Shown here in pieces: positions 23,879 through 52,664 of a stretch of 52,664 nucleotides of DNA. The stretch is from Prevotellaceae bacterium. Its GTDB lineage: Bacteria > Bacteroidota > Bacteroidia > Bacteroidales > Bacteroidaceae. The notes under the pieces are model-generated. The model made no database searches. It was given only the letters and a program-made list of their open reading frames with translations, and had not been told where the DNA came from. Where the stretch lies: assembly GCA_031262085.1 (NCBI GenBank), contig JAISIN010000101.1, positions 1 to 52,664 of the forward strand. Direction: 5' to 3'. The position numbers and the translations under genes are program-made. Every line of letters begins with the position of its first letter. The first letter of the stretch is position 1.

Positions 23879-23984
23879 AAAGGGAAATCCGGCTCACTTC
23901 AAAGGGAGATCTGCCTCAGATGAAAGGGAGTTTTGCATCACATGAAAGGGAGTTTTGCCCCACTTCAAAGGGAGATAATTTCGT
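23879..23984. repeat. Tandem array, five units, period 22 bp
   Basis: AAAGGG recurs at 23879, 23901, 23923, 23945 and 23967, exactly 22 bp apart, inside units such as AAAGGGAGTTTTGCATCACA. A single unit-like match of 15 bp occurs at 9249-9263. The units are not palindromic. The array abuts copy 1 of the three-copy repeat. Confidence 0.85.
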
Positions 23985-30685: not shown

Positions 30686-31471
30686 ATGGCTAAGAACGTT
30701 TTAAAAGGTCGGTTGATGGACAACACCGTCACCGTAGACGACAAGACCGACAAAATCCTCAAACTCGACATTACCCGCAGCGTGGACGAAGAGTATCTGC
30801 TCGACGTAATGGTGAAGAAGAACCCCGGCATCCGCCGCGAGATTATGCAAACCAGTATTTCACTTTTTCAGGAGGCGATTGCCGAAGAGGTGTGCAATGG
30901 TAACAGTGTAAACATCGGTCTGTGCCGCTTCGTGGCGCAGTTCACCGGTGTGATTCGCAACAATGCGTGGAACAAGAACAAGAACTCGATCTATGTGTCG
31001 ATTCAGCAAGGCAAACGCTTGGCACAAGAGATTGCCGACACCACGGTGAAAATTATGCCCGAGACCGCCAGCGCCTACATTGCAGCCGGTGAGGACGCTT
31101 CGACCCGCGCGCAAGACTTCAGCGCGACCGCCGGACGCAACTACATGCTCACCGGAAAGAACATCAAAGTAACGGGCGACGACCCCTCGGTAGGCATCAC
31201 CCTCACCGACAGCAAGGGCAAGACCACACGCCTCACGCCCGACATGATTGCCGTCAACGATCCCTCGAAATTGATCATCCTGCTCCCTGCCGAACTCGCG
31301 GACGACGAGTACACGCTGACGATCACGACGCAGTATAGCGTAGGGCAGAAGTTGGTTAAGCCCCGTGCCATTACACAAACGCTCTATGTGGGCAAAGCCC
31401 CGTCGGGCGGAGGCGGCAATGACGACGGAGGCGGTGGCAATGACGACGGAGAAGATGACCCGTATCAATAA
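30686..31471 (+). CDS. HU-Ig DNA-binding protein (DUF4469-like)
   Basis: The 261-aa protein has an N-terminal HU/IHF-like domain (about 1-125: ILKLDITRSVDEEYLLDVMV, NSVNIGLCRFVAQFTGVIR). A C-terminal Ig-like domain follows (about 135-235: VGITLTDSKGK, DDEYTLTITTQYSVG). The tail is Gly/Asp-rich (GGGGNDDGG) and ends DDPYQ. This HU-plus-Ig (DUF4469-like) architecture is a Bacteroidota specialty. The HU part should bind DNA; the target and role are unknown. A truncated paralogue at the right edge of the window ends with the same DDPYQ. A five-unit 23-bp palindromic array and a hairpin terminator follow in the 3' untranslated region. Confidence 0.82.
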   Translation: MAKNVLKGRLMDNTVTVDDKTDKILKLDITRSVDEEYLLDVMVKKNPGIRREIMQTSISLFQEAIAEEVCNGNSVNIGLCRFVAQFTGVIRNNAWNKNKNSIYVSIQQGKRLAQEIADTTVKIMPETASAYIAAGEDASTRAQDFSATAGRNYMLTGKNIKVTGDDPSVGITLTDSKGKTTRLTPDMIAVNDPSKLIILLPAELADDEYTLTITTQYSVGQKLVKPRAITQTLYVGKAPSGGGGNDDGGGGNDDGEDDPYQ

Positions 31472-31502: not shown

Positions 31503-31615
31503 GACAAAGGGGCTTTGTCAGGTAAGACAAAAGGGTTTTGTCAGGTAAGACAAAGGAGCTTTGTTAGATAAGACAAAGAGGCTTTGTTAGGTAAGACAAA
31601 GAGGCTCTCACGGAT
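31503..31615. repeat. Palindromic tandem array, five units, period 23 bp
   Basis: GACAAAG starts at 31503, 31526, 31549, 31572 and 31595, exactly 23 bp apart. The first four units have the form GACAAAG-(G/A)GG-CTTTGTC with a 6-nt GGTAA-type linker, so each can fold into a 6-7 bp hairpin; the fifth is degenerate. The array begins 31 nt after the HU-Ig stop and should be transcribed with it. Confidence 0.9.
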
Positions 31616-31624
31616 AAACAAACG

Positions 31625-31660
31625 ACAAACGGCGCAGCCTGCAAAGGCAGCGCCGTTTGT
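31625..31660 (+). terminator. Hairpin terminator of the HU-Ig gene
   Basis: ACAAACGGCGC and GCGCCGTTTGT form 11-bp arms, extended inward by GCC/GGC past one mismatch, with a short loop. It lies about 10 nt after the tandem array. A U-run is weak. Confidence 0.7.
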
Positions 31661-47816: not shown

Positions 47817-47863
47817 ATATGTAATGCGCTTGAAAATAGATATATAAATAGAACAGGGGGTGT

Positions 47864-47896
47864 TCAATATCGGACGGGGGCGTGCGATATCGGACG
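47864..47896. repeat. Two-unit 20-bp repeat at the 3' end of the UDG-family gene
   Basis: ATATCGGACGG occurs at 47867 and 47887, 20 bp apart, within GGGGG-containing units. The second unit encodes the end of the glycosylase-family protein and the first contains its stop codon. A GAACA/TGTTC hairpin with a G5 loop sits just beyond (47851-47865). Confidence 0.6.
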
Positions 47897-48475
47897 GAAC
47901 ATCCCCCTATATATCTCCGCTTTCTTCTCTATCTTGAGCGGATAAGCCCGTGACGACGACGGCATCCTATAGAGCCGCATCCCTCGCCCCTCGAATTCAA
48001 ACTCGGTATAGCTGCCGACTTTGGGTTCGACGACGTTGAAACGGGCACACAGCGTGTCACATGCTTTTTGTCCCGTAACGGCTATGATACAACACTCCGG
48101 CAGTTGGCGAAGCAGTGCAGCCACATCGGTAGCTTCCACAATCTCCAAAAACATATCCGAAGCATTGTTATTCAGTCGGCGAACGGCAGTGGCAGTATCG
48201 AACAGGGCTATACCTTGTTCCGTAAGGAAGTCGACTATGCGCGGGCGGCAGAATGCTTTCCCGCCCTCATCGATAAAATGCTCTTTGTCTTGAAAGAAGA
48301 TAAGTCCCATAATCCGCCACATATCATTGTTGAAGTTGGGGTAATAGAAATCCATCGACCACCGCTTGCGCTGGGGCGGAAAGCTGCCCAGCATGAGCAG
48401 TTTCGCATGGGGCGGAAGAAACGGGGTGAGCGGGTGGCGTTCAATGTTACACTGTTGATTATCCGATTGTTTCAT
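47864..48475 (-). CDS. Uracil-DNA glycosylase-family protein
   Basis: The 203-aa protein has the UDG-superfamily motif 1 LGSFPPQRKRWSMDFYYPN, a CIIAVTGQKA strand, and the C-terminal RMPSSSRAYPL that replaces the usual PSPSP motif. It resembles the Mug/TDG-like group and would excise mispaired or damaged bases. ATG 48475 is chosen because the promoter lies upstream of it and inside a longer in-frame ORF. Its last codons are built from a 20-bp repeat (GTCCGATATYG units), so the end FRPISHAPVRY may be repeat-derived. Confidence 0.82.
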   Translation of the reverse strand: MKQSDNQQCNIERHPLTPFLPPHAKLLMLGSFPPQRKRWSMDFYYPNFNNDMWRIMGLIFFQDKEHFIDEGGKAFCRPRIVDFLTEQGIALFDTATAVRRLNNNASDMFLEIVEATDVAALLRQLPECCIIAVTGQKACDTLCARFNVVEPKVGSYTEFEFEGRGMRLYRMPSSSRAYPLKIEKKAEIYRGMFRPISHAPVRY

Positions 48476-48555: not shown

Positions 48556-48630
48556 GATTCACTTTCAGTTTTGGCGTCTTTTCATTTTCGGTTTTGACGC
48601 TTTTCTATTTTCAGTTTTGGCGCTTTTCTA
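48541..48630. repeat. Tandem array, four units, period 22-23 bp
   Basis: TTTC starts units at 48541, 48563, 48586 and 48609 with the consensus TTTCAGTTTTGGCGCTTTTC; the first is degenerate. On the minus strand the array directly follows a TAG (48628-48630) ending a short open text, SVSEVLAKAQ, possibly a gene remnant. The same unit and the leading TTTCAGAAATGGCAAG recur at 51771. Confidence 0.8.
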
Positions 48631-51770: not shown

Positions 51771-51832
51771 TTTCAGAAATGGCAAGGATTTACTTTCAGT
51801 TTTGGCGCTTTTCTGTTTTCAGTTTTGGCAAA
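51771..51832. repeat. Tandem array, three units, period 23 bp
   Basis: TTTCAG starts at 51771, 51794 and 51817. It shares the unit TTTCAGTTTTGGCGCTTTTC and the degenerate first unit TTTCAGAAATGGCAAG with the array at 48541. Read on the minus strand it begins 3 nt after the stop codon of the permease remnant. Confidence 0.8.
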
Positions 51833-51835
51833 TGG

Positions 51836-51900: not shown

Positions 51901-51933
51901 AAGGTTGTCTCATGGGAATTTTGGCATAAAAAA

Positions 51934-51963
51934 GCGGCAGTGTCCGATATTGCACACTGCCGC
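51934..51963 (-). terminator. Rho-independent terminator of the right-hand HU-Ig gene
   Basis: GCGGCAGTGT and ACACTGCCGC are perfect 10-bp arms around a 10-nt loop. On the minus strand the stem is followed by TTTTTTAT. It ends the transcript that carries the HU-Ig coding region and the palindromic array. Confidence 0.85.
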
Positions 51964-52020
51964 ATCTCTTCTCACACTCCGCGTCCGTTGGTTTTGTTTG
52001 TTGGGATAGAGGATAATTCT

Positions 52021-52129
52021 ATCCCCGAACCGGGGATACCTATATCCCCGAGGTGGGGATATCTCTATCCCCGAAGTGGGGATACCTATATCCCCGAAGT
52101 GGGGATACCCCTATCCCCGAAGTGGGGAT
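52021..52129. repeat. Palindromic tandem array, five units, period 23 bp
   Basis: ATCCCCG starts at 52021, 52044, 52067, 52090 and 52113, exactly 23 bp apart. Each unit is a TATCCCC/GGGGATA palindrome with a ~5-nt centre, so the transcript would form five tandem hairpins. It begins 7 nt after the stop of the minus-strand HU-Ig gene. It parallels the array at 31503 in period, number and position but not in sequence. Confidence 0.92.
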
Positions 52130-52136
52130 GAATCAC

Positions 52137-52664
52137 CTATTGGTAGGGATCATCGGGATCGACCGGATCGACCGGTTTGCTTGCTCCGATATAAACGGTC
52201 TGCACGGCACTGCGGGGACTTTTCAAATCATTGCCTCCGCCGCCATACTGCGTCGTCACTTTCAGCTCATACTCTCCGTCGGGCAGTCCGGCGGGGATGA
52301 CGAATGAGAGCTTCGACTTGGTGTTTTGCGAGAACATGTCGGGGTCGACTTTGGTCACCGCACCCGTCTGCACGTTGCGCAGCGTGACGCCCACCGACGG
52401 GTCGGTGCCTGCGAGTTGGATGTTCTTACCGGTGAACACGGCGGGTTTGCCTGCTGCTACGGTGTTGCGCGCTTCGCTGCCGCGGGTGGCGGCGGCGCTG
52501 ACGCTGTTGATGTAGATGGGCTGGCTCTGCTCGGAGGTGATGTTAACGTGCACGTCGTTGTTGCAGGCATCGGCAAGGTCGCGGCTCTGGCTGAAGTTGA
52601 TATGCACCTTGTTGCGTTCGTAGTCCCACACGCCCTTTTCGACGGTGCCCGTGAAGCCAACGCC
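52137..52664 (-). CDS. HU-Ig DNA-binding protein (DUF4469-like), 5'-truncated by the window edge
   Basis: The visible 175 codons include the end of the HU-like domain (GVGFTGTVEKGVWDYERNKV, VHINFSQSRDLADACN) and the Ig-like domain (PSVGVTLRNVQTG, DGEYELKVTTQYGGG). The tail is Pro/Asp-rich and ends DDPYQ, as in the paralogue at 30686. The frame continues beyond the right edge; an in-frame GTG near 52631 is not the start. The five-unit array and the terminator follow on the same strand. Confidence 0.82.
   Translation of the reverse strand, partial: GVGFTGTVEKGVWDYERNKVHINFSQSRDLADACNNDVHVNITSEQSQPIYINSVSAAATRGSEARNTVAAGKPAVFTGKNIQLAGTDPSVGVTLRNVQTGAVTKVDPDMFSQNTKSKLSFVIPAGLPDGEYELKVTTQYGGGGNDLKSPRSAVQTVYIGASKPVDPVDPDDPYQ

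Follow-up and report, generated by a model that had tools for sequence, protein, structure and literature searches.

The right end of the analyzed window raises the question of what a short tandem array of palindromes does beside the gene of a HU-Ig protein, and why another locus of the same window has this layout with an array of entirely different letters. The window is a stretch of 52,664 nucleotides, the whole contig C38 of a 3.18-Mb assembly (134 contigs, 90.6% complete). On its minus strand, an open frame at 52137..52664 encodes the C-terminal 175 aa of a HU-Ig protein with the DUF4469 domain (PF14734, 6.1e-24); the 5' part of the gene lies past the contig end, and the product ends with DDPYQ (codons at 52140..52154) before the stop codon at 52137-52139. 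The HU domain, most of which would fall past the contig end, is not called by Pfam in the 175 visible residues. This DUF4469 gene directly adjoins the array, five tandem palindromes TATCCCC-N5-GGGGATA at 52020..52130 (minus strand) with 4 nt between them. In plus-strand coordinates the copies start at 52020, 52043, 52066, 52089, and 52112, all steps being 23 bp, and the last A of the fifth copy is replaced by G. TRF scores the array at 171 for period 23 and at 189 for period 46, the latter row beginning at 52011, in a degenerate half unit GGGATAGAGGATA (about 52003..52015, minus strand). Seven bases separate the last exact stem base (52129) from the stop codon. On the other side, a hairpin GCGGCAGTGT..ACACTGCCGC followed by T6 (51928..51963, minus strand; stem 51934-51963, A6 at 51928-51933 on the plus strand) resembles an intrinsic terminator, and the range 51934-52139 comprises the terminator, the array, and the stop codon. 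The initial annotation, which described a second HU-Ig-type gene with five 23-bp TATCCCC/GGGGATA units 7 nt past the stop and then a T6 hairpin, is thus borne out by the sequence, TRF, and the Pfam match to DUF4469. The Rfam 15 covariance models gave no match at gathering score within the window. Among other repeats of this region, GTGCAATATCGGAC of the terminator-like stem reappears in a 20-bp tandem at 47856-47897, and TTTCAGTTTTGGC-rich repeats occur at 48563-48630 (period 23, not palindromic) and at about 51790-51833.

The first locus lies on the plus strand. Its gene (30686..31471) encodes 261 aa ending with EDDPYQ and has the full two-domain architecture, HU-DNA_bdg (PF14848, E-value 1.9e-31) and DUF4469 (PF14734, 3.4e-27). 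In the AlphaFold2 model (19 sequences, pLDDT 83.8, pTM 0.51), strands and helices form two domains, one of HU type and one of Ig type, and the tail is of low confidence. Its best Foldseek match is PDB 4fmr, the "putative bacterial DNA binding protein" BVU_2165 (E 4.6e-32), followed at a distance by weak matches to single bacterial HU chains (E 0.006-0.01). HU-Ig is an HU-type DNA-binding fold joined to an Ig-like domain, and the first gene belongs to the HU/IHF superfamily and carries DUF4469. Four HU-Ig proteins received no defence-gene family from PADLOC and no NCBIfam name. As to a type III toxin-antitoxin system, in which RNA repeats accompany a ToxN-like endoribonuclease, the comparison covered these PADLOC results and the gene side of the right-end array, where the neighbour is the DUF4469 gene. 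The array of the first locus (31503..31622, plus strand; TRF period 23) consists of GACAAAG-N3-CTTTGTC plus 6 nt, with a degenerate last unit, and is followed by a terminator-like inverted repeat CAAACGGCGC..GCGCCGTTTG (31626..31659, plus strand). The unit, GACAAAGGGGCTTTGTCAGGTAA, is unrelated to that of the right end; the likeness of the two loci in period and layout and the unlikeness of their units, both noted previously, hold. Motifs resembling the inverted repeat at 31626-31659 (GGCGCAGCC then GCGCCGTTTG) are also seen 3' of several HU-type or DPYQ-tailed genes here (L245, L246, L249, and L252).

Arrays of this kind accompany the protein family well beyond the window. DUF4469 is patchily distributed, in 20/60 genomes of the genus and in 23/249 of the family, where 17 of the 23 belong to the same genus and the other six include only one match above 30 bits; up to 12 matches occur in a single genome. 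A scan of genome contigs yielded 77 loci, from records named Bacteroides, Parabacteroides, Mediterranea, Odoribacter, Phocaeicola, Tannerella, Paludibacter, a Prevotellaceae bacterium, and a Bacteroidales bacterium. Arrays were called by an open search for periods of 15-40 within 320 nt downstream of the stop codon, with the threshold at the 99th percentile of shuffles, for 122 distinct full-length HU-Ig profile hits (including L002, an HU-HIG gene without DUF4469). The best period was 22-24 directly 3' of 95 of the 122 genes, and exactly 23 for 73 of them. Among the 27 remaining genes, 14 have such a period 5' and 13, L002 among them, on neither side. Control 3' flanks were taken from loci L049-L125 only, 83 of 572 being dropped as they lie less than 500 bp from a HU-Ig gene; a 22-24 period was found in 27/489 of them, eight at period 23 (43/572 before the near flanks were dropped), whereas 45/55 HU-Ig genes of the same loci have an array. 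The contrast of 95/122 versus 27/489 is 14-fold and plain, although counting related strains as independent has made its Fisher p, about 1e-60, smaller than it should be. Other measures agree in direction. TRF finds 33 period-23 arrays at HU-Ig 3' ends versus six elsewhere in the 1.27 Mb of the 77 loci; at least three stems in a row at 21-25 bp occur in 74/139 HU-Ig 3' flanks versus 3/417 shuffles, none of which has four; and a stricter stem score selects 42/98 HU-Ig-profile flanks versus 29/572 controls. The linkage of gene and array is very strong, and the possibility that arrays are equally common beside unrelated genes, raised in the initial annotation as a refutation, is answered in the negative. 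Searches of the open-licence PMC literature yielded no paper that treats these arrays or DUF4469; in the excerpted text of the RepRanger paper (PMC12306157), "bacteroid" occurs once, in a table. The phenomenon is real and widespread, and we found no description of it in the open-licence literature.

The genome that contains the window has five DUF4469 matches, those at the ends of C38 and C90 being near-identical, and all five genes have a period-23 array directly past the stop codon. The units fall into four families, GACAAAG..CTTTGTC, TATCCCC..GGGGATA (twice), a GGTAAT..ATAACC type, and a GCAGCAG..CTGTGGC type. The palindromes are not confined to these genes. The pattern ATCCCC-N5-GGGGAT has 13 exact sites in the genome versus none for the reversed control: five in the right-end array, four in its copy on C90, and the remaining four spread over three other period-23 arrays (C55, C64, and C112). 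Profile search and ORF lists gave no DUF4469 match on these three contigs, the C64 array standing at a contig start with one side outside the contig. Judging by eye, the C64 array is upstream of a leuD-like gene, and the C112 array is between SusD-like and nuclease-family genes. Most C64 units have the stem CTCAC..GTGAG and the loop GAAGT; one unit with the same loop has TATCCCC..GGGGATA instead, three paired changes away. Given these three additional loci of the right-end unit, whose contigs lack a DUF4469 match, the arrays are not exclusive to HU-Ig genes. Four units were searched genome-wide. The stem pattern of the first array, GACAAAGNNNCTTTGT, is absent from the rest of the genome, and the G057 stem is likewise restricted to its own array; the G002 stem has one additional site, 9.2 kb from its own array on the same contig, and the right-end unit has the three additional loci.

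A 560-kb sample of the genome (40 stretches) contains 28 non-coding arrays of period 22, six of period 23, and three of period 24, and several of these short arrays belong to dispersed families. With 28 period-22 arrays beside other genes, the array class is therefore wider than HU-Ig, and the HU-Ig arrays are an enriched 23-bp subset of it. On contigs without DUF4469, 22-bp arrays lie within the 2.0-3.4-kb loci of 4/8 PF18291 HU-HIG matches; this is no more than suggestive, because one or two would be expected from the background density of 22-24-bp arrays, roughly one in 15 kb. Two families of 22-bp arrays were observed in the sampled part of the genome: an array in the window at 23893-23974 (CTCACATCAAAGGGAGTTTTGC) clusters with six more, and a second family, with units like CGTCCAACGG..CCGTTAGACG, has seven arrays, one of them adjoining an HU-HIG gene.

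What the arrays have in common is their geometry. In stem chains with 21-25 bp allowed, the spacing between centres is 23.0 in 169/227 steps. When period labels of 22, 23, and 24 are placed on the protein tree, 14 changes are required versus a shuffled mean of 21, and none of 1000 shuffles is as low. Array similarity, on the other hand, is near background below 60% protein identity, with 1-5% of pairs above the 99% null. Because the period tracks the tree while array similarity stays near background, the pitch is a property of the protein clade and the letters mostly are not; dyad symmetry is retained while the letters change. Of the two explanations first offered for unrelated units in identical layouts, selection on geometry is thus supported by the 73/122 genes with best period 23, by units that are mostly unrelated, and by the periods following the tree.

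Our preferred reading, to which we assign a probability of about 0.45, is that the array is a DNA element of the HU-Ig gene, that is, a series of dyad sites at a fixed 23-bp pitch, most likely docking HU-Ig dimers encoded by the neighbouring gene. The pitch corresponds to about two helical turns, and dimers of the product of the adjoining gene could assemble side by side along the array. Such dimers would read the dyad structure and the spacing more than the sequence, in the manner of HU with cruciform or kinked DNA, for which E. coli HU has a preference according to the excerpted text of PMC6907758. The resulting nucleoprotein ladder would probably act in cis at the 3' border of its own locus, in autoregulation or as a boundary or insulator, and stray copies of the unit elsewhere in the genome may be further docking sites.

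A palindrome can act in DNA or, once transcribed, as a hairpin, and the layout itself fits the latter. At both loci of the window the array sits between the stop codon and the terminator-like hairpin, and 90% of the 95 arrays begin no more than 66 nt from the stop. The five palindromes could fold as hairpins in the 3' UTR of the transcript, where HU-Ig would bind them or they would protect the mRNA, and their sequence would be free to vary since only folding matters; in the excerpted text of PMC6907758, a hairpin RNA, naRNA4 from REP325, is a ligand of E. coli HU. An RNA stem would be expected to show G.T in preference to A.C on the transcript strand. In the 1937 stem cells of the 95 arrays, read on the coding strand, there are 1729 Watson-Crick pairs, 46 G.T, 54 A.C, and 108 others (95% CI for the G.T share of G.T plus A.C, 0.36-0.55); the counts on 74 chains are 81:87, and those of events on 42 arrays are 30:20 (p=0.20). 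In 15 tRNAs from the same sequences the ratio is 20:0, and the strand-symmetric mismatches of the arrays, set against it, point to a DNA dyad over an RNA hairpin. The 151 loosely detected terminator candidates, however, gave only 91:73; therefore this count would not tell terminator-like stems apart, and the strand-symmetry test carries less weight than it seems to. Further observations also speak against a transcribed element. Some clades have the array upstream of the gene, which in two loci places it just past the preceding gene; at C55 and C64 the right-end unit is inverted with respect to the adjacent plus-strand genes, as compared with the HU-Ig locus (by eye); and a terminator within 450 nt was detected for only 10/95 arrays, in five of them after the array, by a scan that is likely of low sensitivity. 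The mismatch pattern and the 5' arrays favour what would be a DNA-level dyad, and we regard the RNA explanation as unlikely.

Returning to docking on DNA, one may ask whether the letters nevertheless matter, each array being a sequence-specific site of its own protein. Strict co-diversification of each protein with its array, the second explanation first offered, is rejected. When the 30 pairs of proteins with 85-100% identity are compared, the arrays of 12 pairs resemble each other no more than shuffled sequences do, although one of the 12 (L069/L074) has a second array in common. The loci L032 and L046, which belong to a single genome, are identical at 788/789 compared coding bases and have the same spacer AAGTATT, but their stems are GGCTAA/TTAGCC and GGCCAG/CTGGCC, respectively. 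Arrays are clearly alike in 14 of the 30 pairs, so that the refuting observation proposed at the outset, units varying freely among identical proteins, was made in part only. The spacer GACACCC is likewise common to L029, L097, and L094, whose stems differ. As a general rule, stems that change while spacers stay is weakened by a modest contrast: in comparable pairs with arm identity below 0.7 versus unrelated pairs, the values are 0.53 vs 0.39 for spacers, 0.39 vs 0.33 for arms, and 0.41 vs 0.41 for loops, and the pattern is clear only in L032/L046, L181/L168, and L169/L168.

A weaker form of co-diversification partly stands. We compared 11 pairs, nine with differing and two with similar arrays, along the gene. 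In five of the nine, an Ig loop at residues of about 217-232 (31334-31381 in the first gene of the window) diverges abruptly together with the array; from about residue 217, nucleotide identity falls from 0.87 to 0.39 in L065/L062, from 0.99 to 0.63 in L028/L053, from 0.86 to 0.52 in L029/L097, from 0.96 to 0.67 in L045/L098, and from 0.89 to 0.58 in L034/L157. In L065/L062 the HU domain is 100% and the Ig domain (124-216) 93-96% identical, the loop is 41% identical, and the arrays are unrelated. Synonymous sites of the loop have mostly diverged in the five pairs (3/3, 4/6, 3/4, 2/3, and 1/4). There seems to have been gene conversion across the body of the gene, with the last Ig loop and the array left locus-specific, because the loop identity falls abruptly and its few synonymous sites have mostly diverged too. 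The array may be a private site read by the loop, which AlphaFold2 places between the last two Ig strands, 207-215 and 227-235, the two being inherited as a module while conversion homogenises the rest. Neither array-similar pair (L080/L033 and L166/L183) has a loop drop, and of all windows the loop gives the highest partial correlation with the similarity of the arrays (r 0.12, 0/300 permutations). Against such a module, the drop is weaker in L181/L168 and L131/L148 and absent from L040/L041 and L069/L074, although arrays differ in all four; L032 and L046 have identical loops with different stems; the window of residues 85-100 is close behind (0.11); and when similarity is measured on the stems, the loop scores no higher than two other windows and stays below the family-wise threshold (0.109 vs 0.116). 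Across all pairs the coupling of loop and array is weak, and linkage by itself would also make the array covary with the 3' end of the gene. Thus a private, sequence-specific site seems to us improbable, about on a par with the RNA hairpins.

The C-terminal tail is another part of the protein with a distribution of its own. A tail motif is often common to the paralogues of one genome even when they are less than 30% identical, and the last five residues are alike at four or more positions in 58/128 within-genome versus 117/3619 between-genome pairs. The tail seems to be kept at the protein level, because synonymous codons differ. In the genome of the window, DDPYQ ends 3/5 DUF4469 genes (52140-52154 and 31454-31468 in the window) and two HU-HIG proteins, and it is not universal. 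Five of the eight sites with DPYQ before a stop are HU-like, namely the two genes of the window, the C90 copy, and the two HU-HIG genes; the other three are two unclassified 68-aa fragments at contig starts and one 14-aa frame. Elsewhere the tails are GQGTFG (9/12 in G237 and 8/11 in G046), HQLG (7/8 in G016), EENPLG (5/5 in G056), and RPVIE in 4/4 HU-Ig paralogues of BH.2_3 (Parabacteroides). These genome-specific tails point to a possible common partner. Loop and tail could be united in a doubtful extension of the docking model, in which HU-Ig proteins would be locus-addressed chromatin proteins: HU would read the 23-bp dyad ladder, the Ig loop, placed like CDR3 of an antibody, would read the private stem, and the genome-specific tail would dock divergent paralogues to one common partner, each locus having its own DNA address.

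Less likely still is a non-adaptive origin, with palindromic repeats expanded by slippage, kept symmetric by template-switch repair of imperfect palindromes, and persisting where HU-Ig genes tolerate or attract them. The very fast turnover of units, the strand-symmetric stem mismatches, and the many 22-bp arrays adjoining other genes are what it would predict, but it leaves unexplained the 14-fold enrichment at a single gene family (95/122 vs 27/489), period 23 at HU-Ig versus mostly 22 in the sampled genome, and a period that follows the protein clade. Three further candidates were discarded: a CRISPR array at the right-end locus, where the palindromes are 4 nt apart at period 23 and there are no CRISPR-length unique spacers; a viral origin, as no relative was confirmed among 71 pattern matches in viral contigs; and REP/RAYT elements, as the Y1 transposase (PF01797) had no match in the 90.6%-complete assembly, whereas the same search matched 5/14 control genomes. 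REP elements are short intergenic palindromes in clusters, and to that extent they resemble the arrays. As regards dispersal, two of the four units searched genome-wide are confined to their own array and two have further sites.

Among known systems, close counterparts of the docking reading are iterons and centromere arrays, such as the plasmid Rep iterons of about 20 bp and the clusters of parS/parC-type sites, with generally one site sequence per protein family. The HU-Ig arrays are similar in having tandem sites about two helical turns apart that adjoin the gene of a DNA-binding protein (95/122, by adjacency only). They differ in that the site sequence is not conserved with the protein family (12/30 close pairs dissimilar), that the sites are usually 3' of the gene, that the protein is of the HU/Ig type, and that a genome may have up to 12 DUF4469 matches. 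HU-HIG expansions in Bacteroidetes were reportedly described by Burroughs and colleagues in 2017; the proteins considered here, like PDB 4fmr, are of the same family, and to our knowledge 3' arrays, shared tails, and loop divergence were not described in that work. E. coli HU with REP325/naRNA4 also pairs an HU-fold protein with a palindromic repeat element, but there, in the excerpted text of PMC6907758, HU is a general nucleoid protein acting with RNA, whereas each HU-Ig array adjoins its own paralogue and has no RNA-type mismatch bias. If the docking reading is true, recognition would be of an unusual kind, with one protein family coupled throughout Bacteroidales to a DNA element set by spacing and symmetry rather than by sequence. 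The expanded set of HU-Ig paralogues in gut bacteria would thereby gain a first function open to testing, and with the structure 4fmr already solved, binding can be assayed directly.

Finally, in three loci (L094, L097, and L099) the HU-Ig gene stands among lipoprotein-like, possibly fimbrial genes, as judged by eye, two of which neighbours have no Pfam family. A second palindromic array was observed near the distal end of these loci, and in L099 it has a hairpin in common with the HU-Ig array.
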